The position numbers were made by a program, and so were the translations under genes. A DNA stretch of 14,223 bases, from positions 1 to 14,223 of the forward strand of contig JAEVZN010000293.1 in NCBI GenBank assembly GCA_023392205.1. Reading direction: 5' to 3'. How positions within the stretch are numbered: the first letter of the stretch is position 1; the number at the start of each line of letters is the position of its first letter. This stretch comes from Pseudomonadota bacterium (lineage in GTDB: Bacteria > Pseudomonadota > Alphaproteobacteria > Rhizobiales > Xanthobacteraceae). Of the stretch, positions 1,080 through 12,403 are shown in pieces. Below the pieces are notes generated by a model, which was not told the origin of the DNA, searched no databases, and saw only the letters and a program-made list of their open reading frames with translations.

Positions 1080-2348
<1,269 letters not shown>

Positions 2349-2353
2349 TAAAG

Positions 2354-2358
2354 CCTCC
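2354..2358 (-). promoter_or_regulatory. Strong Shine-Dalgarno that sets the ccr start
   Basis: Minus-strand GGAGG lies 5 nt before the ATG at 2348-2346. This supports the 422-residue Ccr over the 493-residue reading that begins at 2561. Confidence 0.75.
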
Positions 2359-2404
2359 GGCTGGCGCATAACGAGGCAGGGCGCGGCCGTGATTGTGACG
2401 CAGA

Positions 2405-2474
2405 GATTTTTGCGCCGCAACAGACAAGCGAGCCGCCCGCCTGGATGGAACCCGGCCTGGAGGCGGCAAAAATC
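2405..2474. repeat. 9-bp inverted repeat in the ccr upstream region
   Basis: GATTTTTGC at 2405-2413 is exactly inverted by GCAAAAATC at 2466-2474, with 52 bp between the arms. The AT-rich cores stand out in GC-rich DNA. The left arm overlaps the TTGC-N3-GCAA palindrome at 2410-2420. This could be a pair of half-sites for a regulator of ccr. The arms are far apart for a terminator and no role is proven. Confidence 0.4.
2410..2420. promoter_or_regulatory. TGC-N3-GCA palindrome upstream of ccr (candidate operator)
   Basis: The site reads TTGC-GCC-GCAA, a perfect 4-bp inverted repeat around a 3-bp spacer, 62 bp before the ccr start codon. From memory, sites of the form CTGC-N3/4-GCAG are bound by the polyhydroxybutyrate-responsive repressor PhaR in Paracoccus and relatives. 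Similar sites occur upstream of glsB-ecm in this window. Assigning it to PhaR is inference only. Confidence 0.4.
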
Positions 2475-2498
2475 CGCGTCAGGATGTCGCGAGGGCGG

Positions 2499-2538
2499 TT
2501 TCCTAAGGGGTTCCTCAAGGATTTGCGGTCCAAGGAAA
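2499..2538. repeat. Three iterated TTCCT/AAGG elements between ccr and the acyltransferase gene
   Basis: TTTCCTAAGG (2499-2508) and TTCCTCAAGG (2511-2520) are near-direct repeats, each with some dyad symmetry. CCAAGGAAA (2530-2538) is the same motif in inverse orientation. The three copies lie in the divergent control region, 50-90 bp before the plus-strand operon, which suits an operator array. No regulator is assigned. Confidence 0.35.
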
Positions 2539-2588
2539 GCGGTTGAAGCAGAGCAATTCAATCAACGGTAATCCGGGCTTCCAGACCT

Positions 2589-3422
2589 ATGTTGCGGCCG
2601 ATCGACTTTCACTCGCTGGACGACGCGCTGCCGGTGCTGGCGCGCGGCTTTCCCGCGCGATCGCACGCGGCGTGGACGGCGAGCCTGCAACGGCTCAGGC
2701 AATATGGCCGCAGCGATCCCGGCCGGACAGCCGGTTACATGCTTGAGGCCAAGGGCCGCGATGTCGGCGTCCTGCTGGCCATTCCCGGCGCCGCCACCGG
2801 CGCACCCGTGGTGAACCTCTCCAGCTGGTATGTGGACCCCGAGCACCGCTTCAAGGCGCCGCGCATGCTGCAACAGATCGTCGGCAGCGACACCACATTG
2901 TTCACCGACCTGACCCCCACCCCGCAGGTGCGCACGATGATCGGGCGCTTCGGTTTTCGCACCTGGACGGACGGTATCGTCCTGTTCGCGCTGCCGTGGT
3001 TTGCACTGAAATCGGCAAAGCACAGCCATGTGCTGCCGCTGCATGAAATTCCGGCCGACGCCTTCGCGCCCGCCGTGCAGACCCTGCTCGACGACCACGC
3101 GGCGCTCGATTGTATCGCCTGCGCGCTCTGGGACGGACACAGTCTTCATCCGCTGATCTTCTCGCGCACACGCCGCCGCGGGCTGCCTTTGGCGCGCTTG
3201 GTCTATGCCGACGATCTGGCGCTGGTGAATACGCATATCGCCGCCATTTCCCGTCATCTGTTGCGCGAGCGCGTGATCGTTCTGGCGGTCAACGGTAACC
3301 GCAACGAACGCGCCCGCGGCACCATCTTCACCGAGCATCCGTCGCCCGCCTATTTCAAAGGCGACCGCGCGCCCGGACCGCGCGATCTCGCCTATTCCGA
3401 ATACGTCTTTCTGCAGGTCTGA
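2589..3422 (+). CDS. GNAT-fold acyltransferase-like protein, first gene of the ACP/ligase/decarboxylase operon
   Basis: This gene encodes 277 residues. The N-terminal half has the trace of a GNAT N-acyltransferase. LSSWYVDPEHR at 77-87 corresponds to the beta4/motif A region, and a following helix is succeeded by a FGFR segment at 121-124 of the kind that closes GNAT domains. The usual R/Q-x-x-G-x-G/A pyrophosphate loop is degenerate (HRFKAPRML, no glycine). Residues 145-277 form a second domain that I do not recognise, possibly a second GNAT-like half. The gene ends 41 bp before the ACP gene on the same strand, so co-transcription is likely. Its logical role would be transfer of an acyl group from the ACP, but that is inference. 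The ATG has only a weak ribosome binding site; no better start is visible. The substrate is unknown. Confidence 0.65.
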   Translation: MLRPIDFHSLDDALPVLARGFPARSHAAWTASLQRLRQYGRSDPGRTAGYMLEAKGRDVGVLLAIPGAATGAPVVNLSSWYVDPEHRFKAPRMLQQIVGSDTTLFTDLTPTPQVRTMIGRFGFRTWTDGIVLFALPWFALKSAKHSHVLPLHEIPADAFAPAVQTLLDDHAALDCIACALWDGHSLHPLIFSRTRRRGLPLARLVYADDLALVNTHIAAISRHLLRERVIVLAVNGNRNERARGTIFTEHPSPAYFKGDRAPGPRDLAYSEYVFLQV

Positions 3423-3463
3423 CCGGAAACCGATCAGCAAGCGCAACGCCAGCGGGAGAAAAC

Positions 3464-3724
3464 ATGTTGTCGCCAGAGACCATCGATGTCAGAGCCCTGA
3501 CCGCGGACTATCTGCGGCAGCGCTTTCCGCAACTCGCAAGCCAGACCCTCGATGACGACACGGCCTTGCTGTCGACCGGCGTCGTCGATTCGCTCGGCAT
3601 TCTCGATCTTGCGGCCTTCCTTGGCGAACGTCTCGGCATCGAGATTTCCGATGAGGATTTCGAACCGCAGAATTTCGAGACCTTCGGTCGGCTGACGGAA
3701 TTTGTGGAGCGCAAGCGGTCGTGA
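3464..3724 (+). CDS. Free-standing acyl carrier protein
   Basis: This gene encodes 86 residues with the classic four-helix acyl carrier protein pattern. The phosphopantetheine attachment motif VVDSLGIL places the modified serine at residue 43. An acidic helix after it (AAFLGERLGIEISDEDF, 50-66) is where partner enzymes normally dock. GGGAG at 3454-3458 is a good ribosome binding site for the ATG. The stop codon overlaps the GTG start of the ligase gene by 4 bp (GTGA), so translation of the two is probably coupled. It is not fatty-acid-synthesis AcpP: the sequence differs from the highly conserved AcpP and the gene is not near fab genes. It probably carries the acid activated by the neighbouring ligase. 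Confidence 0.9.
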   Translation: MLSPETIDVRALTADYLRQRFPQLASQTLDDDTALLSTGVVDSLGILDLAAFLGERLGIEISDEDFEPQNFETFGRLTEFVERKRS

Positions 3725-5259
3725 CCATTGCGCCGTGTCTGGTTCATCATCTGCTGGGGGACCAGGATCGCGGCGATGCCGCGCGCATCGCCCTGATTCA
3801 GGATGCGCGCAAGCTCGACTATGGCGAATTTCGGCGGCTGGTGCGCCGCGATGCCATTGCATTGCAATCGCAGGGTCTGCAACGCGGCGATCGCGTCGCG
3901 ATCCTGCTGCCGAAAAGCATCGAGGAAAGCGCCGCGATCTTCGCCGTGAGCGCGGCGGGTGGCGTCTTCGTGCCGGTCAACCCGTTGCTGAAACCGGCGC
4001 AGGTGCGCCATATCGTCGAGGATTGCGAGGCTCGCTTTCTGATCACCAACCGCGCGCTTCGCGACACGCACGGCGATGCCCTGAGCGACCTGTCCTCGCT
4101 GACAATCCTCGATACCGACACCATCCCGCCGGTCGATGGCACGGCGCTAATCCCGTCCGCGGCCATCGGCGAGGATCTCGCCGCCATCCTCTATACCTCC
4201 GGGTCGACCGGCCGCCCGAAAGGCGTGATGCTAAGCCATCGCAACCTGATCGCCGGCACGCGCATCGTGCGCAATTATCTCGGTATCAATTCCGACGACC
4301 GCATCCTCTCGATCCTGCCGTTCAGCTTCGATTACGGACTGAACCAGTTGCTCACCGCCATCGAGCAGCGCGCCTCGCTGGTGCTGCTGACGTTCCGGTT
4401 CGGCGACGAGATCGTGCGCGCAATCCGCGATCATGAATGCACCGGCCTTGCCGGCGTCCCGACCATCTGGTCGATCCTCACCCGCGCCGCGCCTTTGCTG
4501 GCCAAAACGCCTTTGCCATCGCTGCGCTACATCACCAATTCCGGCGGCGCCGTGCCCTCCGAGACCGTGAAGCGGCTGCGCGATTTGATTCCCGATACCC
4601 GCATCTTCCTGATGTACGGGTTGACCGAAGCCTTCCGCTCCACCTTCCTGCCGCCCGACGAGATCGATCGCCGTCCGACCTCCATCGGCAGAGCCATACC
4701 CGAATGCGAGGTGTTTCCCGTTACCGCCGACGGCAAGCGCGCCAAGCCCGGCGAGCCCGGCATCCTCGTGCATCGCGGCCCGACCGTTTCGCTGGGCTAT
4801 TGGAAACGCCCGGAGGATACTGCACGCGTGCTACGCCAGAACCCGCTGATCCCCGCCGATTGCGGCGCCGATATCGTCTGCTGGTCCGGCGACCTCGTGA
4901 TCGAGGACGAAGAGGGGTTTCTGCATTTCGTCGGACGCGACGACGCCATGATCAAGTCGTCCGGCTATCGCATCAGCCCGACCGAAGTGGAGGAAGTGCT
5001 GATGGCCACCGGGCAATTCCGGCAGATCGCGGTGATCGGCCTGCCCGATCAACTGATCGGCCAGCGCGTTCATGCCGTGGCGGTGTCGCGCGGGGCACCG
5101 ATCGATATTCCGGTGACGCTGAAAAGCGTCTCCGACAGACTGGCCTCCTTCATGCTGCCGCGCGACATCGAACTGGTCGACGATCTGCCGGTCACGCCAA
5201 ACGGCAAGGTCGATTACAAGGCGCTGGTCGCGCAAAGGAGCGCGCATGCTGGCCATTGA
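3721..5259 (+). CDS. AMP-forming acyl-CoA/acyl-ACP ligase, exosortase A-associated type
   Basis: This gene encodes 512 residues of the ANL superfamily. The P-loop YTSGSTGRPKG is at 158-168, YGLTE at 299-303, WSGD at 388-391, the hinge region GRDDAMIKSSGYR at 405-417, and the catalytic Lys496 in PNGKVD. The enzyme should activate a carboxylic acid with ATP and pass it to a thiol, here probably the phosphopantetheine of the adjoining ACP. Segments such as GGVFVPVNPLLKPAQV, LPFSFDYGLNQL and LMYGLTEAFRSTFLPP agree closely with my memory of the family named acyl-CoA ligase, exosortase A system-associated, which is typically found beside a PLP decarboxylase, as here. The GTG start overlaps the ACP stop by 4 bp. 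The 3' end overlaps the decarboxylase gene by 14 bp. The substrate is unknown. Confidence 0.88.
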   Translation: MTIAPCLVHHLLGDQDRGDAARIALIQDARKLDYGEFRRLVRRDAIALQSQGLQRGDRVAILLPKSIEESAAIFAVSAAGGVFVPVNPLLKPAQVRHIVEDCEARFLITNRALRDTHGDALSDLSSLTILDTDTIPPVDGTALIPSAAIGEDLAAILYTSGSTGRPKGVMLSHRNLIAGTRIVRNYLGINSDDRILSILPFSFDYGLNQLLTAIEQRASLVLLTFRFGDEIVRAIRDHECTGLAGVPTIWSILTRAAPLLAKTPLPSLRYITNSGGAVPSETVKRLRDLIPDTRIFLMYGLTEAFRSTFLPPDEIDRRPTSIGRAIPECEVFPVTADGKRAKPGEPGILVHRGPTVSLGYWKRPEDTARVLRQNPLIPADCGADIVCWSGDLVIEDEEGFLHFVGRDDAMIKSSGYRISPTEVEEVLMATGQFRQIAVIGLPDQLIGQRVHAVAVSRGAPIDIPVTLKSVSDRLASFMLPRDIELVDDLPVTPNGKVDYKALVAQRSAHAGH

Positions 5260-6556
5260 TGAAAAGCCGAAGATTGAAGCCGGGCTGGCACAGGATCTGA
5301 TCGCGCAGCATTTTCGGATCGAGCGGGGACATCTGCTTGTCGGTGGATTGCGTGTTGCGGACATCGCGCAGCAATTCGGTACGCCGCTCTACATCTACGA
5401 TGCTGACGTGATGCGAAATTCCTTCCGCGCATTATCGGATGCGCTGAAGGGTTTTGCCGCGCTCTATTATTCCATCAAGGCCAACCCGCAGCCCGAGATC
5501 GCGCGCATCTTCCTCGACGAAGGCGCCGGGATCGAAATCGCATCACTGGGCGAATACGCGCGCGCGCGCCAGGCCGGCGCGAAGCCGCAGCAGATCCTGT
5601 TCGCCGGACCCGGAAAGCGCGAGCAGGAACTTGCGACCGTGATTGCCGACGGCATCGGCGAAATCCATGTCGAGACGTTCGAGGAAATCGCCCTCATTCA
5701 GGCCATCGCGACACGGCTCGAATGCCGCGTACCGGTGGCGATCCGCCTCAATCCCGTAGCAGCCGCACAGGGCGGCGCGATGCGCATGGGCGGCAAGCCC
5801 TCGCCCTTCGGCTTCGACGAGGAGCAATTGCCCGACGTCCTGGCAGCCCTCGCGGTCGCCCCGCATCTCGAACTGTGCGGCGTGCATCTGTTTGCCGGAA
5901 CGCAGATCCTCGATGCCGCGACATTGCTCAAGCAATGGCAACACGGCCTCGATCTCGCCGCACGCGTCGCCCGACAGGCTGCACATCCCCTGCGCAGCAT
6001 CGATCTCGGCGGCGGGCTTGGCATTCCCTATTACAACGGCGACAGGACGCTCGATCTGGCCGCCCTGCGCGCGGGCTTGCCTGACCTCACCGCGCAAAAG
6101 CAATCCGAGGCGTTGCTGCGCGATGCCCGTGTGATCGTCGAGCCCGGCCGCTATCTCGCCGGACCCGGCGGGCTTTATGTGATGCGGGTTCTCGCGAACA
6201 AATCCTCACGCGGCGAACGCTTTATCGTCACCGATGGCGGCATGCATCATCACCTCGCAGCATCCGGCAATCTCGGTCAGGTTATCAAGCGAGATTACCC
6301 GATAGTTGCACCGACCCGCCTCGACGATCCGGACACGATGACCTGTGCCATTGTCGGCCCGCTTTGCACACCGCTCGATACTTTGGCCCGCAAATGCCGG
6401 ATGCCGGACCTCAAAGCGGGCGATCTGGTCGCCGTCATGCAATCGGGCGCGTATGGATTGTCGGCCAGCCCGTCGGGTTTTCTCAGCCATCCCACACCGG
6501 CCGAAGTGCTGGTGGACAGGGGCGAGGTCCGGCCGATTGGCACGCGGCCGGACTGA
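5246..6556 (+). CDS. Fold-III PLP-dependent decarboxylase (DAP/ornithine decarboxylase-like), exosortase A-associated type
   Basis: This gene encodes 436 residues with an alanine-racemase-type barrel. The PLP lysine is Lys78 in YYSIKANP. The glycine loop DLGGGLG is at 254-260, EPGRYL at 299-304, GPLCTPLD at 371-378 with Cys374 at the catalytic cysteine position, and GAYG at 401-404. Diaminopimelate decarboxylases normally show CESxD and a SSNYN tail; here these are CTPLD and SASPSGFLSH, so free diaminopimelate is an unlikely substrate. VTDGGMHHHLAASGNLGQVIKR is split around 328-349 and fits the exosortase A-associated decarboxylase family as I remember it. The N-terminal extension of about 30 residues is unusual. 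AAAGGAG at 5234-5240 precedes the ATG, and the 14-bp overlap with the ligase implies coupling. A likely role is decarboxylation of an aminoacyl-ACP or its free acid. Confidence 0.87.
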   Translation: MLAIDEKPKIEAGLAQDLIAQHFRIERGHLLVGGLRVADIAQQFGTPLYIYDADVMRNSFRALSDALKGFAALYYSIKANPQPEIARIFLDEGAGIEIASLGEYARARQAGAKPQQILFAGPGKREQELATVIADGIGEIHVETFEEIALIQAIATRLECRVPVAIRLNPVAAAQGGAMRMGGKPSPFGFDEEQLPDVLAALAVAPHLELCGVHLFAGTQILDAATLLKQWQHGLDLAARVARQAAHPLRSIDLGGGLGIPYYNGDRTLDLAALRAGLPDLTAQKQSEALLRDARVIVEPGRYLAGPGGLYVMRVLANKSSRGERFIVTDGGMHHHLAASGNLGQVIKRDYPIVAPTRLDDPDTMTCAIVGPLCTPLDTLARKCRMPDLKAGDLVAVMQSGAYGLSASPSGFLSHPTPAEVLVDRGEVRPIGTRPD

Positions 6557-6775: not shown

Positions 6776-7027
6776 ATGGGTATTGAAAGTCTGCTTGTGT
6801 GGCTGATCGTCGGTGCAATTGCCGGCTGGCTGGCCGGCATCATCGTCAGCGGCTACGGTTTTGGGCTGATCGGCAATATTGTGGTCGGCATTGTCGGCGC
6901 CTTCATTGCCGGCCTGCTGCTGCCGCAACTTGGTATTGGGCTCCCGGCCGGCTTTCTTGGCGCGATCATTTATTCGGCGATCGGTGCCATCATTCTTCTG
7001 GTCATTATCGGTCTCATCAGACGGTAA
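6776..7027 (+). CDS. GlsB/YeaQ/YmgE family small membrane protein
   Basis: This gene encodes 83 residues, nearly all hydrophobic and glycine-rich. Three membrane segments can be seen: about 5-25 (LLVWLIVGAIAGWLAGIIV), 28-50 (around GLIGNIVVGIVGAFIAGLLLP) and 57-80 (around AGFLGAIIYSAIGAIILLVII). The WLIVGAIAGWLAG opening and the GNIVVGIVGAFIAG centre are hallmarks of the GlsB/YeaQ/YmgE family (transglycosylase-associated protein family), small inner-membrane proteins linked to stress responses but without a proven biochemical role. GGGGAG at 6764-6769, 6 nt before the ATG, fixes the start; the frame is open further upstream but lacks family sequence. Only 29 bp separate it from ecm, so the two probably share a transcript from the promoter at 6674-6703. 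Confidence 0.9.
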   Translation: MGIESLLVWLIVGAIAGWLAGIIVSGYGFGLIGNIVVGIVGAFIAGLLLPQLGIGLPAGFLGAIIYSAIGAIILLVIIGLIRR

Positions 7028-7056
7028 GTCTCACAAAGCGTCAGGTCGGGTCTCGC

Positions 7057-9048
7057 ATGGACGGCAAAACGGACGACACACGCAAGCGAGACCGGCCCTG
7101 GATTTTCCGCACCTATGCGGGGCATTCGACCGCTGAGAAGTCGAATGCCCTGTATCGACAGAATCTGGCGCGAGGCCAGACCGGCCTCTCCATCGCCTTC
7201 GATCTGCCGACCCAGACCGGCTACGATTCCGATCATGTGCTGGCGGCCGGCGAAGTCGGCAAGGTCGGCGTGCCGGTATCGCATCTGGGCGACATGCGCA
7301 CCCTGCTCGACGGCATTCCGCTCGCGCAAATGAACACGTCGATGACCATCAACGCGCCGGCGGCATGGCTGCTATCGCTCTATATTGCGGTGGCCGACGA
7401 GACCGGCGCGCCGCGTGAAAAGCTGACCGGCACCACCCAGAACGATATCATCAAGGAATATCTGTCGCGGGGCACGTATGTGTTTCCGCCCGGCCCCTCG
7501 CTGCGTCTGATCAAGGATACAATCCTGTTCACGACGCAGGAAATGCCGAAATGGAATCCGATGAATGTCTGCTCCTATCATCTGCAGGAGGCAGGTGCGA
7601 CACCGGTGCAAGAGCTGGCCTATGCGCTTGCGACAGCGATTGCCGTACTCGACACCGTGAAGGCATCCGGCGAAGTGCCGGAGGGCCAGATGGGCGAAGT
7701 GGTCGGCCGCATTTCCTTCTTCGTCAATGCGGGCATGCGCTTCATCACCGAAATCTGCAAGATGCGCGCCTTCGTGGAGATGTGGGACGAGATCACCGCA
7801 CAGCGGTTCGGCGTCACCGACCCCAAGCAGCGGCTGTTCCGCTATGGCGTGCAGGTCAATTCGCTCGGCCTCACCGAGCAGCAGCCGGAGAACAACGTCT
7901 ACCGCATCTTCCTTGAGATGCTGGCGGTCACGCTGTCGAAAAAGGCGCGCGCGCGTGCCGTCCAGTTGCCGGCCTGGAACGAGGCGCTCGGCCTGCCGCG
8001 GCCTTTCGACCAGCAATGGTCGCTGCGCGCGCAGCAGATCCTCGCCTACGAAACCGATCTGCTGGAATACGGCGACATTTTCGACGGCTCGACCGCGATC
8101 AGGAACAAGGTCGACGAACTGATCCGCGATGCGAAAGAGGAACTTGCCATTATCGACCGGCTGGGCGGTGCCGTTGCGGCCGTCGAGATGGGCTACATGA
8201 AGCAGCAGCTTGTGGACAGCAATACGAAGCGGCTTGAAGCCATTGAGCGCGGCGACAGCGTAGTCGTCGGCGTCAACAAGTATATCGAAAGCGAACCCTC
8301 GCCGCTGACCGGCGGCATCGATGCGATCATGACCGTGGCGCCCGGCGTCGAAGCCGAACAGATCGGCCGCCTCAATGCGTGGCGGCAGGCGCGCGATGCC
8401 AAGGCTGCGGATGCCGCGTTGAGCGAATTGCGCGCAGCCGCGCGCGAAGGCCGTAACGTCATGCCGGCCTCGATCGCCTGCGCCAAGGCCGGCATTACCA
8501 CCGGCGAATGGGGCGCCGTCTTCCGCGAGGTGTTCGGCGAATATCGCGCACCCACCGGGGTGCCGAAGGCGGCGCGTCAGGTCGGCGGCGAAGAACTCGA
8601 ACCCGTGCGCGCGGAAGTCGAGCGCGTCTCGCACAAGCTCGGACGGCGCATGAAATTCCTGGTCGGCAAGCCCGGCCTTGACGGCCATTCCAACGGCGCC
8701 GAGCAGATCGCCGTGCGCGCGCGCGACGTCGGCATGGACGTGATCTATGGCGGCATCCGCTTCACACCGGCCGAGTTGGTCAAGACCGCCAGGGACGAAG
8801 GCGTCGATGTGATCGGCCTGTCGATCCTCTCGGGAAGCCATGTGCCGCTGGTGCGCGACGTGGTGGAGCGGATGCGCGCCGAAGGCCTCGACGATGTGCC
8901 GGTCGTGGTCGGCGGCATCGTGCCACCGGAAGACGAACAGCTGCTCAAGCAATCGGGCGTCGCTGCCGTTTATACGCCCAAGGATTTCCAGATCAACCAG
9001 ATCATGACGGATGTGGTGCGGATCGTGGAGCGCGCCCAGCGCGACTGA
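7057..9048 (+). CDS. ecm: Ethylmalonyl-CoA mutase (B12-dependent, MeaA-type)
   Basis: This gene encodes 663 residues. The enzyme uses adenosylcobalamin to rearrange (2R)-ethylmalonyl-CoA to (2S)-methylsuccinyl-CoA in the cytosolic ethylmalonyl-CoA pathway, after Ccr and the epimerase. The N-terminal catalytic barrel (about 12-490) has the methylmalonyl-CoA mutase family pattern: RTYAGHSTAEKSN, FDLPTQTGYDSD and GTTQNDIIKEY. The C-terminal cobalamin-binding domain (about 530-660) has LDGHSNGAEQIA with axial ligand His544, the SxL motif at 589-591 and GG at 619-620. DGHSNG rather than the DGHDRG of methylmalonyl-CoA mutase, and the overall length, favour Ecm. The ATG of MDGKTDD is chosen because everything upstream in frame overlaps the GlsB-family gene. 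The ribosome binding site is weak (GGTCGGG), consistent with reliance on the upstream gene. Confidence 0.94.
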   Translation: MDGKTDDTRKRDRPWIFRTYAGHSTAEKSNALYRQNLARGQTGLSIAFDLPTQTGYDSDHVLAAGEVGKVGVPVSHLGDMRTLLDGIPLAQMNTSMTINAPAAWLLSLYIAVADETGAPREKLTGTTQNDIIKEYLSRGTYVFPPGPSLRLIKDTILFTTQEMPKWNPMNVCSYHLQEAGATPVQELAYALATAIAVLDTVKASGEVPEGQMGEVVGRISFFVNAGMRFITEICKMRAFVEMWDEITAQRFGVTDPKQRLFRYGVQVNSLGLTEQQPENNVYRIFLEMLAVTLSKKARARAVQLPAWNEALGLPRPFDQQWSLRAQQILAYETDLLEYGDIFDGSTAIRNKVDELIRDAKEELAIIDRLGGAVAAVEMGYMKQQLVDSNTKRLEAIERGDSVVVGVNKYIESEPSPLTGGIDAIMTVAPGVEAEQIGRLNAWRQARDAKAADAALSELRAAAREGRNVMPASIACAKAGITTGEWGAVFREVFGEYRAPTGVPKAARQVGGEELEPVRAEVERVSHKLGRRMKFLVGKPGLDGHSNGAEQIAVRARDVGMDVIYGGIRFTPAELVKTARDEGVDVIGLSILSGSHVPLVRDVVERMRAEGLDDVPVVVGGIVPPEDEQLLKQSGVAAVYTPKDFQINQIMTDVVRIVERAQRD

Positions 9049-9062
9049 AGGCGCCGTTGCTT

Positions 9063-9875
9063 TCAGGCTTCCGGCACGCGTCCGGCATGCATGGTCAGCG
9101 TGAAGGTGCTGCCCCGGTCCGGCGTGCTCGCCACCGTGAGATCGCCGTCCATCGCTTTGGCCAGACGCTTGACCAGCACGAGACCGAGACCGGTGCCGCC
9201 GAAGCGGCGCGAGACCGCTTCGCTGGCCTGCGCGAAAGGCCGGAACAGCGCCTTGATCTCGGCCGGGCTCATGCCGATACCGCTGTCGCTGATGGCGAAG
9301 ACAAGCAGCACGCGGCCCCGCGTGGCGGGCTTCGCGGTCACGTCGAACCCGACACTGCCACGCATGGTGAATTTCACCGCATTGTCGATGAGATTTTCCA
9401 GCGCCGCCCGCAACCGCACCGTATCGCCGATCGCCTCCGCCGGCACGTCGTCATGGATCGTCACATTCGCCGTAAGCCCCGCCGCGGCCGCACGGGCGGT
9501 AAGCGACGCGCCGAGATCCTGCGCCAATTTACGCGGGGAAAACCGGTCCTTGCGCAGCACCAGCGTCGCCGCATCGGCCTTGACCGCATCGAGGATCAGC
9601 AAGGTCGATTGTGCCAGATGCTCGGCCGCGCTTTGGATGGCATTTGCCCAGCCGCGCTGGCGATCGGTCAGATCGGAAGCGGCCAGCAATTCGGAAAGGG
9701 CCAGAATACCGGTCAGGGGTGTGCGGATATCGTGCGCCAAGGCTGCCATGGCGCGCTCAATCTGCTGCTGTTCTGCGGCTTCGGCCATAGCGCCCGCCTG
9801 CGCCTTGCGCACAGGTTTGCGCGCCGTGGCCGGCGCAGGCTTGGCGGCATGCCGCTTTGGTCGACCGCGCTGCAT
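9063..9875 (-). CDS. Soluble sensor-less histidine kinase
   Basis: This gene encodes 270 residues. The phospho-acceptor H-box is ALAHDIRTPL, with His48. The N-box ENLIDNAVKF has Asn165, the G1 box is DSGIGM at 197-202, and the G2 box GGTGLGL is at 226-232. This is a complete HisKA plus HATPase_c core. No membrane segment, PAS, HAMP or other sensor domain is present. The first 30 residues are very basic and Ala/Pro-rich and begin MQRGRPKR, which contains an AT-hook-like GRP core. The start is uncertain: the ATG at 9875 has no Shine-Dalgarno, while an internal ATG at 9788 (residue 30) follows AGGCGG. No response regulator gene is adjacent. It lies 44 bp downstream of gluQRS on the same strand, probably in one transcript, and converges on ecm with a 14-bp gap. 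Confidence 0.88.
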   Translation of the reverse strand: MQRGRPKRHAAKPAPATARKPVRKAQAGAMAEAAEQQQIERAMAALAHDIRTPLTGILALSELLAASDLTDRQRGWANAIQSAAEHLAQSTLLILDAVKADAATLVLRKDRFSPRKLAQDLGASLTARAAAAGLTANVTIHDDVPAEAIGDTVRLRAALENLIDNAVKFTMRGSVGFDVTAKPATRGRVLLVFAISDSGIGMSPAEIKALFRPFAQASEAVSRRFGGTGLGLVLVKRLAKAMDGDLTVASTPDRGSTFTLTMHAGRVPEA

Positions 9876-9919
9876 GATTCGTCACAGTAAGAATGACATG
9901 CGGCCGCGACGGCGGCCAT

Positions 9920-10792
9920 TCATCCGTCAGCGATACCCAAAGCCTTTCGCAATCCGGCTGGCGTCGCCTCTCCCGCCCTCAATGAACGGATGGCCGTCGC
10001 CTGCGTGGATTTCGAAAGCTTGCGGCCGTTGGCATCGAGCACCAGCCGGTGATGACGGTAAACCGGTGCGGGCAGTCCGAGCAACACCTGAAGGAGCCGG
10101 TGCACGTCGGTCGACCGGAAAAGATCCTGCCCGCGCACCACATGCGACACGCCTTGAATGGCATCGTCCACCACCACCGACAGGTGATAACTGGTCGGCA
10201 CATCCTTGCGCGCCAGCACCACATCGCCCCAGGCCTGCGGATCGGCCACCACCTCGCCGGTCTCGCCGGCCGGGCCGGCGCCGGTTTCGCTGAAAGTCAA
10301 TGCGCCAACTCGCGCGATGGCCTTGGCCATATCCAGCCGCAAGGCATAGGGCGCGCCGTCCGCAATGCGTGCGCGGCGCTCGGTATCGCTCATGTCCGCG
10401 CGGTGGCCGGGATAGATCGGCGCGCCGTCGGGATCGCGCGGCCAGCCATCCCCGCGTTCGCTCACCATCTGCGCAATGTCGCCGCGGCTCTCGAACGTCG
10501 CATAAAGCAGATCCATCGCGTCAAGCCGCGCCAGCGCGTCCCGATATGCGCCGAAATGCTCCGATTGCCGCCGCACCGGTTGCTCCCAGACGATGCCGAG
10601 CCAGGCCAGATCCTCATGGATCGCAGCCTCGAATTCCGGGCAGCAGCGCGTCCGGTCGATATCCTCGATGCGCAGAAGCAGGCGGCCCTGTGCGGCCCGC
10701 GCTAGTTCTGCATTGAGCAGCGCCGACAGCGCGTGTCCAAGATGCAGATAGCCATTCGGCGACGGCGCAAAACGGAAAACGGGTGGCGGCAT
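9920..10792 (-). CDS. gluQRS: Glutamyl-Q tRNA(Asp) synthetase
   Basis: This gene encodes 290 residues. It is a truncated class I glutamyl-tRNA synthetase paralogue that attaches glutamate to queuosine in the wobble position of tRNA(Asp), without an anticodon-binding domain. FAPSPNGYLHLGHA at 8-21 carries the HIGH-type motif (HLGH) and KLSKS at 258-262 is the second nucleotide-binding motif. RIEDIDRTR at 41-49 and the SYHLSVVVDD region are family hallmarks. The length fits GluQ-RS and excludes a full GltX. The Zn-binding cysteines of the E. coli enzyme appear absent: the corresponding positions read Thr99, Glu101 and Arg131, with Tyr127 kept. It is transcribed divergently from the DNA glycosylase gene, with 66 bp between starts. 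The ribosome binding site is weak. Confidence 0.92.
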   Translation of the reverse strand: MPPPVFRFAPSPNGYLHLGHALSALLNAELARAAQGRLLLRIEDIDRTRCCPEFEAAIHEDLAWLGIVWEQPVRRQSEHFGAYRDALARLDAMDLLYATFESRGDIAQMVSERGDGWPRDPDGAPIYPGHRADMSDTERRARIADGAPYALRLDMAKAIARVGALTFSETGAGPAGETGEVVADPQAWGDVVLARKDVPTSYHLSVVVDDAIQGVSHVVRGQDLFRSTDVHRLLQVLLGLPAPVYRHHRLVLDANGRKLSKSTQATAIRSLRAGEATPAGLRKALGIADG

Positions 10793-10858
10793 GTTGGGCT
10801 ATCTGCAAACGCGATTCACTGGACGTCCCGCCATATCGAGTTATGACAGCATCCCAGC

Positions 10859-11674
10859 ATGGTCCAGTTCCTCCACACGCAATCCGATCTTTCCGCGGCG
10901 CTGGGGCGGCTCATTGCCGCCGATCCGCGCCTCATGCCGGTTTTGGACACAGCCGGACACCCGCCCTTGCGGCGGCGCGCACCGGGCTTTCCGGGCCTTG
11001 CGCAGGTCATTTGCGGCCAACAATTGTCGACCGCAAGTGCCGGTGCCATCTGGGCGCGGTTGGAACAGGCCTTTGTGCCCTTCGATCCAGATCCTCTGCG
11101 CAAGGCGCGCGCCGACCGGCTCGCGCGGCTGGGTCTGTCTGCGGCCAAGATCAAGTCGATCAAGGCCATCGCCTCAGCGATCGGCAATGGGCAGCTCGAC
11201 CTCGATGCCATTGCCGTGCAGGAGGCCGACAGCGCGCATCAGGCCCTGATCGCCTTTCACGGCATCGGACCCTGGACGGCCGATATCTATCTCCTGTTCT
11301 GCCTCGGTCATGCGGACGCCTTTCCGGCCGGCGATCTGGCCCTGCAGGAGGCCTTGCGGATCGGCTTCGGGATGAAGGCACGCCCCACGGCAAAAGAGCT
11401 GATCGCGATTGCCGAATGCTGGCGGCCTTATCGCGGGGTGGCCGCGCATCTGCTCTGGCACTATTATCACGTCGTCAAACGCCGCGACGGCGCGCCGATG
11501 CAGGCCAAGCCGCCGCGTTCCAGCACAAAAGCCGGTGCGGCGACCGCGGCAGGACTCAAGGTCCCGGCCAAGGCCAGCGCGACCGTCAGATCCAGGGCCG
11601 CCACGGCCGTTCAGAAGAAAGCAGTCTCGAATGGCCGCAAGCGCCCCGCCGAAACTCTCAGGCCCAAGCCTTGA
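10859..11674 (+). CDS. AlkA-like DNA-3-methyladenine glycosylase with basic C-terminal tail
   Basis: This gene encodes 271 residues. The HhH-GPD core spans about 40-205. VICGQQLS at 50-57 is the usual start of the fold. The helix-hairpin-helix is FHGIGPWTA at 133-141, and Asp159 in FPAGDLALQ matches the catalytic aspartate (Asp238 of E. coli AlkA). The enzyme should excise alkylated bases such as 3-methyladenine in base-excision repair. Like yeast MAG it lacks the N-terminal domain of E. coli AlkA. From about 206 a 65-residue tail rich in Lys, Arg, Ala and Ser follows, probably disordered and DNA-binding. The tail's coding end overlaps the next gene by 44 bp. The ATG at 10859 has no strong Shine-Dalgarno. 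Exact base specificity cannot be told from sequence. Confidence 0.88.
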   Translation: MVQFLHTQSDLSAALGRLIAADPRLMPVLDTAGHPPLRRRAPGFPGLAQVICGQQLSTASAGAIWARLEQAFVPFDPDPLRKARADRLARLGLSAAKIKSIKAIASAIGNGQLDLDAIAVQEADSAHQALIAFHGIGPWTADIYLLFCLGHADAFPAGDLALQEALRIGFGMKARPTAKELIAIAECWRPYRGVAAHLLWHYYHVVKRRDGAPMQAKPPRSSTKAGAATAAGLKVPAKASATVRSRAATAVQKKAVSNGRKRPAETLRPKP

Positions 11675-12311
11675 ACCGCAATCCGGACAGGCCAAACGGC
11701 TTGTCGTCTTCCTGCATGGCTATGGCGCCGACGGCAACGACCTGATCGATATCGGCCGCGCCTGGCAGCCGATCCTGCCGGATACAGCCTTCATCTCGCC
11801 GCATGCGCCCGAGGCCTGCGGGCAGGCGCCGGTCGGCCGGCAATGGTTTGGCCTCACCTTCCGCGATCCGGACGAACGCTGGAATGGCGTCAATCAGGCG
11901 GCTCCGGCGCTGAATGCCTTTCTCGACGCAGAGCTGACAAGGCGGCAATTGCCGCCCTCGGCGCTGGCATTGGTCGGATTCAGCCAGGGGACCATGATGG
12001 CCTTGCATGCGGGCTTGCGCCGTGCGGTCGCACCCGCAGCTATCGTCGGCTATTCGGGGATGTTCATCATGCCCAATGACGGCCCGCCCGAGACGGTCCA
12101 GGGCGAGATCACCGCGCGCCCGCCGGTGCTGCTGATCCATGGCGACGGCGACGAACTGATCCCGGTTCAGGCCCTGTTCCACGCCTCTTCTGCCCTGTCG
12201 GCGCTGGATGTGCCGGTGGAATGGCATATTTCGTCCGGGATCGGCCACGGCATCGATCAGGAGGGCCTGCGCCATGGCGGCGAGTTCCTGGCGAGGCGAT
12301 TCGGGCTGTAA
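11631..12311 (+). CDS. Alpha/beta hydrolase, phospholipase/carboxylesterase family
   Basis: This gene encodes 226 residues with a full alpha/beta-hydrolase catalytic triad: Ser118 in GFSQG, Asp174 in GDGDELIP and His206 in GIGHGID. The oxyanion-hole motif LHGYGADGND is at 28-37. It belongs to the Pfam phospholipase/carboxylesterase (acyl-protein thioesterase-like) family of small cytosolic esterases; the natural substrate is unknown. The ATG at 11631 is chosen because PKLSGPSLEP directly after it looks like the normal beginning of rhizobial members, and no other start lies between it and the conserved core. This makes its first 44 bp overlap the end of the glycosylase gene, so co-transcription and translational coupling are likely. 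The reading frame is open for 74 more codons upstream, but that part is a shadow of the glycosylase gene. Confidence 0.9.
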   Translation: MAASAPPKLSGPSLEPQSGQAKRLVVFLHGYGADGNDLIDIGRAWQPILPDTAFISPHAPEACGQAPVGRQWFGLTFRDPDERWNGVNQAAPALNAFLDAELTRRQLPPSALALVGFSQGTMMALHAGLRRAVAPAAIVGYSGMFIMPNDGPPETVQGEITARPPVLLIHGDGDELIPVQALFHASSALSALDVPVEWHISSGIGHGIDQEGLRHGGEFLARRFGL

Positions 12312-12374
12312 GCAGCCGCCGGACCGGGTCGGGACGCGGCCAAGAACGCAACCGCGGTAAGCCTTGGGGAGACC

Positions 12375-12403
12375 TTCACATTCCCGTCACGCTCACCTAT
12401 CAT
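12375..12403 (+). promoter_or_regulatory. Candidate sigma-70 promoter of the HNH endonuclease gene
   Basis: TTCACA (12375-12380) and TATCAT (12398-12403) are separated by 17 bp and each match consensus at five of six positions. The start would be near 12410, giving a short leader of about 34 nt before the TTG start codon. Confidence 0.5.

Follow-up and report, generated by a model that had tools for sequence, protein, structure and literature searches.

The window analyzed here, a contig of 14,223 nucleotides from an alphaproteobacterium of the family Xanthobacteraceae (JAEVZN010000293.1, assembly GCA_023392205.1), encompasses a cassette of four plus-strand genes that encode, in this order, a tandem-GNAT-fold acyltransferase of 277 amino acids (positions 2589-3422), a stand-alone acyl carrier protein (ACP) of 86 amino acids (3464-3724), an AMP-forming amino acid:ACP ligase of 512 amino acids with a GTG start (3721-5259), and a fold-III pyridoxal phosphate (PLP) decarboxylase of 436 amino acids (5246-6556). 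The spacing of +41, -4 and -14 bp reported by a first-pass annotation of this DNA was reproduced from the coordinates of the open reading frames (ORFs). Sequence comparisons of these proteins lend good support to a carrier-protein amino acid pathway as a class, within which we propose that the product of 2589-3422 is an aminoacyl-[carrier protein]-dependent transferase.

The four proteins and the predicted substrate class

Among all NCBIfam models listed, the ligase and the decarboxylase best match TIGR03098 (568.6 bits) and TIGR03099 (432.3 bits), respectively, in both cases under the curated cut-off (592.35 and 478.45), and these models score ahead of those for ordinary acyl-CoA synthetases and diaminopimelate decarboxylases. 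For the specificity region of the ligase, the top solved structures are 3wv4 and 3wvn, which also represent the best single-domain match of the whole protein and which we take to be VinN (the PDB entry itself says non-ribosomal peptide synthetase, NRPS). D204, S274 and R306 of the window ligase align with D230, S299 and R331 of these structures, which accounts for the Asp, Ser and Arg, but not the Lys, of the VinN-type signature at positions 230/299/330/331; D230 and R331 are presumably the residues, in VinN numbering, that bind the amine and the carboxylate of 3-methylaspartate. D204 and R306 are kept in 67 of the 67 aligned ligases (32 from operons of the window type, 20 of the exosortase type defined below, 3 of the exopolysaccharide type and 12 others that are a selection), the exception being the ligase of L084, a locus with no decarboxylase, which has Val at the place of the Arg if read without a gap. 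At the S274 position, all 32 operon ligases have Ser, while those of the exosortase type vary between Ser and Thr. Two other structures, 5jjp and 5jjq, presumably CmiS6 and IdnL1, have no Arg at the R306 position in the specificity-region alignment. The CmiS6/IdnL1 class takes non-acidic beta-amino acids, as described in excerpts of PMC11284099.

One relative, L163 in genome G282, contains a fused glutamate (methylaspartate) mutase gene (10447-12375) with a TIGR03098-like ligase on one side and a TIGR03099-like decarboxylase on the other. The mutase matches TIGR01503 at 450.4 bits (cut-off 390.1), its N-terminal B12-binding part matches S-subunit models under their cut-offs, and it is the only PF06368 match in G282 at E <= 1e-60. 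The gene run consists of a GNAT homologue (E 1.1e-14), a PIG-L de-N-acetylase with a methyltransferase domain, the decarboxylase, the mutase and the ligase, with an ACP on the opposite strand and glycosyltransferases on both sides of the run. According to the same excerpts, the glutamate mutase VinI/VinH supplies 3-methylaspartate to the VinN/VinL/VinO pathway (PMC11284099). An amino-dicarboxylic acid is therefore fairly well supported, by sequence, as the substrate class; in loci that lack the mutase, the substrate would be aspartate, and glutamate is possible.

Ligase and ACP relatives also occur in other settings. On pSymB of Sinorhizobium meliloti (L198:5707-9512), they adjoin an asparagine synthase gene (asnB), with no decarboxylase, and the ligase has a VinN-like TECKR motif. 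In Azospirillum (L200:6342-13926), they are accompanied by asnB, nadE, a polysaccharide deacetylase and a GNAT, again with no decarboxylase; in this ligase relative, Gly replaces the Asp expected to bind the amine, and the Arg lies one position off.

The decarboxylase matches the Pfam domains PF02784 and PF00278, and its best solved relative is BtrK (7ru7, 284.5 bits, compared with 186.8 for the best diaminopimelate decarboxylase, a difference of 98 bits), the PDB name of which is L-glutamyl-[BtrI acyl-carrier protein] decarboxylase. The PLP lysine (K78) and the motif C374-T-P-L-D378 are invariant across 19 aligned relatives. The CTPLD motif at Cys374 is present in 33 of 33 operon enzymes and in 20 of 20 of the exosortase type, and seven of seven lysA outgroups have CE(S/T)xD. 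The protein is thus an ornithine/diaminopimelate-type PLP enzyme that keeps the PLP lysine and has CTP in place of CES, which places it in the BtrK type. A plasmid of Streptomyces decoyicus (L090) carries a relative of the decarboxylase with an ACP next in line, close to an NRPS gene.

The ACP matches the Pfam PP-binding family (PF00550) at 26.1 bits, with a gathering score of 20.8; its best NCBIfam model is AmcB, the cispentacin ACP, at 45 bits, under the cut-off of 80. The DSL motif in the translation contains the serine predicted to bear the 4'-phosphopantetheine (Ser43, codon at 3590-3592). The product of the first gene matched no Pfam family up to E 0.1 and no NCBIfam family in library scans, and so has no recognized Pfam GNAT domain; membership in the fold comes from the AlphaFold2 model (pLDDT 92.9), a tandem GNAT fold, in agreement with the GNAT-like protein of the first-pass annotation.

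Conservation of the cassette and the partners of its transferase

With the GNAT alignment as query, a scan of contigs yielded 199 confirmed relatives, the best 80 of which were kept as loci. The GNAT gene is followed by the ligase and decarboxylase genes, on the same strand and in the same order, in 30 of the 30 loci that hold all three, which were retrieved with the GNAT as bait; in one more locus (L005), the ligase is truncated by the contig end. In all these 31 loci, an ACP lies between the GNAT and the ligase (tblastn). These operons come from Pseudorhodoplanes, Phreatobacter, Agrobacterium/Rhizobium, Shinella, Beijerinckiaceae, Hyphomicrobium, undesignated Hyphomicrobiales and one metagenome-assembled genome (MAG) labelled Acidobacteria.

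Because the GNAT had served as bait, 297 Hyphomicrobiales genomes were searched for the GNAT and the decarboxylase separately. Matches of 333 bits or more were taken as operon-type GNATs (the next match scored 182), and those of 652 bits or more as operon-type decarboxylases (one further match scored 409). By these thresholds, 13 genomes encode the GNAT and 17 the decarboxylase, with all 13 contained within the 17 (hypergeometric chance 1.4e-19). Nine of the 13 (G002-G009 and G011, the last being the centre of the sample) came from the bait scan, and the four newly met genomes (G688, G726, G786, G850) all have the two genes adjacent. The distance between the two is 1.80-1.93 kb, on one contig and strand, in 12 of 12 assessable genomes, the thirteenth (G005) being split by a contig end; the decarboxylase match in G003 contains one in-frame TGA. 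The constant order and strand and the nesting of the GNAT genomes within the decarboxylase genomes indicate a grouping beyond chance.

The remainder of the 80 GNAT loci consists of 40 with a gene resembling class-II aminoacyl-tRNA synthetases within 3 kb and nine with neither partner. Two of the class-II genes were checked, and both match the solved amino acid--[acyl-carrier-protein] ligase Bll0957 (3mey; E 5.6e-215 and 1e-132) far ahead of seryl-tRNA synthetase. No Bll0957-type gene was found in the 30 loci with ligase and decarboxylase. Pseudochrobactrum has the arrangement ligase-ACP-GNAT, and the stretch examined contains no annotated decarboxylase. Given that the GNAT accompanies either an AMP-forming or a Bll0957-type ligase, it appears to be one transferase family that draws on several aminoacyl-carrier sources. 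At L051 (8962-9939) and L045 (10841-11761), the Bll0957-type ligase and an acyl-CoA dehydrogenase-like gene lie beside paralogues of the window GNAT. In Shinella yambaruensis, two GNAT paralogues lie about 17 kb apart on one contig, one with the operon (L027) and the other with no ligase or decarboxylase nearby (L025).

The genes that flank the cassette vary with lineage. In the window, a crotonyl-CoA carboxylase/reductase gene lies divergently upstream (1080-2561, minus strand; TIGR01751, 607.4 bits, cut-off 378.55), and a methylmalonyl/ethylmalonyl-CoA mutase-type gene lies downstream (6799-9048, plus strand; TIGR00641, 470.8 bits, cut-off 303.8), with its real start probably downstream of the called one; both are outside the system. 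Among 30 relatives, these neighbours are common only to the Pseudorhodoplanes MAG L001 (heuristic ORF calls), and a heuristic ORF clustering showed no family of flanking genes common to the different lineages. The cassette of Agrobacterium (L015) is surrounded by genes for an alcohol dehydrogenase and a chorismate-binding enzyme together with tgt and queA, and that of Phreatobacter (L002) by TRAP transporter and RraA-like genes. The placement between putative ethylmalonyl-CoA pathway genes described in the first-pass annotation is accordingly improbable as a guide to function: such lineage-specific neighbours look incidental, and we rejected a functional tie to that pathway. The description of the operon as self-contained fits this variability. 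Farther downstream (9091-10713), two plus-strand ORFs of 400 and 138 amino acids have no NCBIfam match; they overlap minus-strand ORFs with homologues in L001 and thus may not be genes.

Exosortase A loci and alternative explanations

The first-pass annotation assigned the ligase and the decarboxylase to the pair known from exosortase A/PEP-CTERM loci, and TIGR03098 and TIGR03099 are indeed the best models, as would be expected of a displaced exosortase A module serving protein sorting. This assignment held only at the level of the models, because both scores fall under the cut-offs and the decarboxylase belongs to a clade of its own. In a FastTree phylogeny, the 33 operon decarboxylases, that of the window included, form one clade with those of L168 and L169 (support 0.965), whereas the other group comprises all 20 exosortase-type decarboxylases along with those of S. 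meliloti, Aureimonas and G365 (support only 0.547). The absence of an exosortase from view extends from the window to the relatives: of 32 related genomes searched, 31 showed no exosortase (PF09721), the 32 being made up of 30 carriers of the complete operon, G005 with the cut operon and G012 without it. In contrast, among 398 Pseudomonadota genomes, it is present in 27 of the 29 with a decarboxylase over the TIGR03099 cut-off, and in six of another 17 with a decarboxylase at E 1e-90 below that cut-off. The partner enzymes differ as well. We took 22 loci over the cut-off (19 from the 29 genomes and 3 from another search) and, after removal of L157 (no ligase in 20 kb) and L154 (exopolysaccharide type, with a GNAT), treated 20 as the exosortase type, although one of them (L155) comes from a genome, G642, that lacks exosortase. 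The window GNAT family was found in none of these 20; instead, the ACP has another GNAT-type transferase as its direct neighbour in 10 loci and as its fusion partner in an eleventh (L156:6571-7896 of G385, one open frame with a GNAT-type part at residues 12-335 and an ACP at 365-439). This other transferase is PF13480 in L186 and in a distant copy of L152. FemAB (TIGR03019) exceeds its cut-off in 26 of the 29 genomes with a passing decarboxylase. Deacetylase-like matches occur in 12 of the 20 loci (small profile), and the deacetylase of L186 belongs to TIGR03006; because the GNAT2, ACP, deacetylase and similar profiles were built from few seeds, missing matches are weak evidence. We rejected the displaced exosortase module, which is very improbable given the distribution of exosortase among the related and sampled genomes and given the tree; the cassette appears instead to represent a related lineage. 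A single MAG labelled Acidobacteria (RBC033, G027; L028) carries both the whole operon and exosortase genes, unique among the 32 genomes, reflecting either horizontal transfer or a mis-binned contig.

Equally improbable is the reading in which the decarboxylase is a standard enzyme for diaminopimelate, ornithine or lysine that sits next to an acyl-CoA synthetase by chance or for polyamine metabolism. The names in the source records include diaminopimelate decarboxylase, and the lysA model (TIGR01048) reaches 289.2 bits, just short of its cut-off of 297.9; it is, however, 143 bits behind TIGR03099, BtrK is the best solved relative, all 33 operon enzymes carry the CTPLD motif rather than CE(S/T)xD, and the ligase has an Asp of the amine-binding type. 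On these scores and motifs, the ordinary pair was rejected. The least probable of the explanations considered is that the cassette makes free beta-alanine or gamma-aminobutyrate (GABA), for instance for coenzyme A synthesis, with the GNAT releasing or protecting it: the predicted product would indeed bear a beta-alanyl group, but no fifth gene recurs across lineages, by heuristic ORF calls, and the GNAT fold is a transferase fold. Weightier, although still unlikely, is the explanation that accepts the same aminoacyl-ACP chemistry with a different acceptor, namely, a small molecule, a lipid, a protein N-terminus or a polyamine made elsewhere; the pathway would then end in a small natural product or a modified lipid instead of a decorated polysaccharide. 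No family of flanking genes recurs across lineages in the heuristic ORF clustering, whereas polysaccharide clusters do recur, in Shinella/Rhizobium, in S. meliloti/Aureimonas and in G282.

Proposed pathway, its acceptor and its relation to known systems

We lean toward the view that the whole cassette is a stand-alone aminoacyl-carrier-protein pathway, with a polysaccharide sugar as the likeliest acceptor. The ligase would adenylate an amino-dicarboxylic acid, most likely L-aspartate, and load its side-chain carboxyl onto the phosphopantetheine of the ACP. The BtrK-like PLP enzyme would then strip the free alpha-carboxyl from the tethered amino acid, yielding beta-alanyl-ACP (or GABA-ACP if the substrate is glutamate, and 3-aminoisobutyryl-ACP if it is 3-methylaspartate). 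In the VinO system, the thioester is formed before decarboxylation (excerpts of PMC11284099). Finally, the tandem GNAT would hand the omega-aminoacyl group to an amine, a transfer from the carrier that is moderately supported and in keeping with the earlier suggestion of the GNAT as the likely terminal transferase. The likeliest acceptor would be an amino sugar that a de-N-acetylase has unmasked in a polysaccharide of the cell surface, much as NodB/NodA and ACP work together. Sequence or fold shows the classes of the enzymes, their key residues, the linkage of the genes and the partnership with a carrier protein; from these, we infer the substrate, tethering before decarboxylation and GNAT transfer, and, most weakly, the sugar acceptor.

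The suggestion of a polysaccharide acceptor comes from relatives of the cassette, as no sugar genes were recognized among the proteins scanned at the window, L015 or L002. The cassette lies inside polysaccharide clusters in Shinella pShin-01, Shinella WSC3-e, Rhizobium CC-CFT758 and S. yambaruensis (L027), and in three of these four clusters, all except pShin-01, a polysaccharide deacetylase and a flippase are near the cassette. A distant GNAT homologue accompanies the ligase, decarboxylase, ACP, glycosyltransferases and a deacetylase in S. meliloti pSymB and Aureimonas (E about 1e-25 in each) and in G365 (2.7e-20), and it adjoins the ligase in the S. meliloti pSymB and Aureimonas clusters. 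The required chemistry exists: in NodB/NodA, de-N-acetylation of a sugar is followed by N-acylation from ACP (excerpts of PMC5080398). By analogy, a polysaccharide amino sugar as the acceptor is weakly supported.

Several observations weigh against the proposed pathway or parts of it. With respect to the acceptor, sugar genes were not recognized among the scanned window ORFs, and the flanking proteins scanned in L015 (seven) and L002 (three) are housekeeping, transport or RraA-like, with no sugar genes; nor are those of L051 (six) and L045 (four) polysaccharide genes. With respect to linkage, the four genes are conserved together in relatives, but in the sample of 297 Hyphomicrobiales genomes, operon-type GNATs were not found in four of the 17 decarboxylase genomes. 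Two of these (G525 and G400, loci L166 and L165) have the decarboxylase, around which no GNAT, ACP or ligase was recognized up to a distance of about 10 kb, and the other two (G408 and G293) have only ACP-ligase-decarboxylase; distant GNAT paralogues occur elsewhere in G525 (two) and G408 (one), and none in G400 and G293. These absences are soft, given that scoring was confined to the best eight GNAT and five decarboxylase candidates in each genome. The operon of Rhizobium CC-CFT758 has interrupted reading frames for both the ACP and the ligase. The nine of 80 GNAT loci with neither partner nearby (L012, L025, L029, L033, L034, L036, L038, L041, L044) include several with an AMP ligase or ACP in the vicinity and some on short contigs, and of the 28 genomes whose GNAT loci lack the pair, 25 showed no TIGR03099-type enzyme (E <= 1e-85); the other three (those of L029, L041 and L044) carry such a decarboxylase elsewhere. 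With respect to the substrate, Lys330 of the VinN signature is replaced by Phe in the window ligase and throughout the operon ligases (32 of 32), and the S274 position is Thr in six of the 20 exosortase-type and all three exopolysaccharide-type ligases. A scan of 50 loci, including 40 decarboxylase loci, showed the glutamate mutase in one, and a fused mutase of Roseibium that is 47.5% identical to it is part of an NRPS cluster. Motif A of the GNAT reads R-x-x-A-P, and the activities of the ligase, decarboxylase and GNAT are predictions from sequence.

The VinN/VinL/VinO analogy drawn in the first-pass annotation gained support from the aligned D204, S274 and R306, the BtrK-like enzyme and the mutase-bearing relative. 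Like the cassette, this vicenistatin system (FlvN in fluvirucin) combines an adenylating ligase, a stand-alone ACP and a PLP decarboxylase acting on an ACP-bound beta-amino acid, according to excerpts of PMC11284099. The cassette differs in that no polyketide synthase, VinM-type second adenylation enzyme or dipeptidyltransferase was recognized in the operon, in the tandem GNAT at the terminal place, and in the Phe at K330; a polyketide synthase was not seen among the scanned window proteins or the scanned flanks of relatives. BtrK of butirosin biosynthesis, the closest solved decarboxylase, shares the CTP motif and acts on glutamyl-BtrI, as its PDB name states; its partner ligase is of the ATP-grasp type, whereas the cassette decarboxylase adjoins an AMP-forming ligase. 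The exosortase A-associated pair shares with the cassette its best models and the presence of an ACP, which each of the 20 exosortase-type loci has in its 20 kb, and differs in clade, in acyltransferase and in genomic company. TIGR03098 and TIGR03099 are of the model type "hypothetical equivalogs", with members beside exosortase and exopolysaccharide genes; we know of no assigned substrate for them, and none was found for the exosortase-associated pair in the open-licence PMC text searched. Bll0957 of Bradyrhizobium likewise makes an aminoacyl carrier protein and likewise adjoins a homologue of the cassette GNAT, but has a class-II-synthetase fold and no decarboxylase; to our knowledge, no fate has been reported for the aminoacyl group of Bll0957-type carriers. 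NodB/NodA with ACP share the sequence of de-N-acetylation and ACP-dependent N-acylation proposed for the cassette, whereas NodA moves fatty acyl groups; kinship to NodA is unsupported, as the GNAT has no Pfam match, and NodA serves as an analogy alone. In the open-licence PMC text searched, we recognized no paper on this operon. What is new here is a VinN/VinL/VinO- and BtrI/BtrK-like pathway with an acyltransferase family for which there is no existing model.

Together, the cassette, the aligned residues and the mutase-bearing relative yield a concrete prediction: an acidic amino acid would be held as a side-chain thioester and lose its alpha-carboxyl on the ACP. The GNAT found beside Bll0957-type ligases is a candidate user of those aminoacylated carriers. 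Tentatively, and with less confidence than we place in the pathway itself, the cassette might be one instance of a general decoration of surface polysaccharides, in which ACP-loaded acidic amino acids are decarboxylated and moved by GNAT-fold transferases onto de-N-acetylated amino sugars as beta-alanyl units, or as 3-aminoisobutyryl units where a glutamate mutase is present. If true, this would supply both a substrate and a purpose for the exosortase A-associated TIGR03098/TIGR03099 pair, and would make the new GNAT family the acceptor enzyme so far missing for the Bradyrhizobium amino acid:[carrier protein] ligases.

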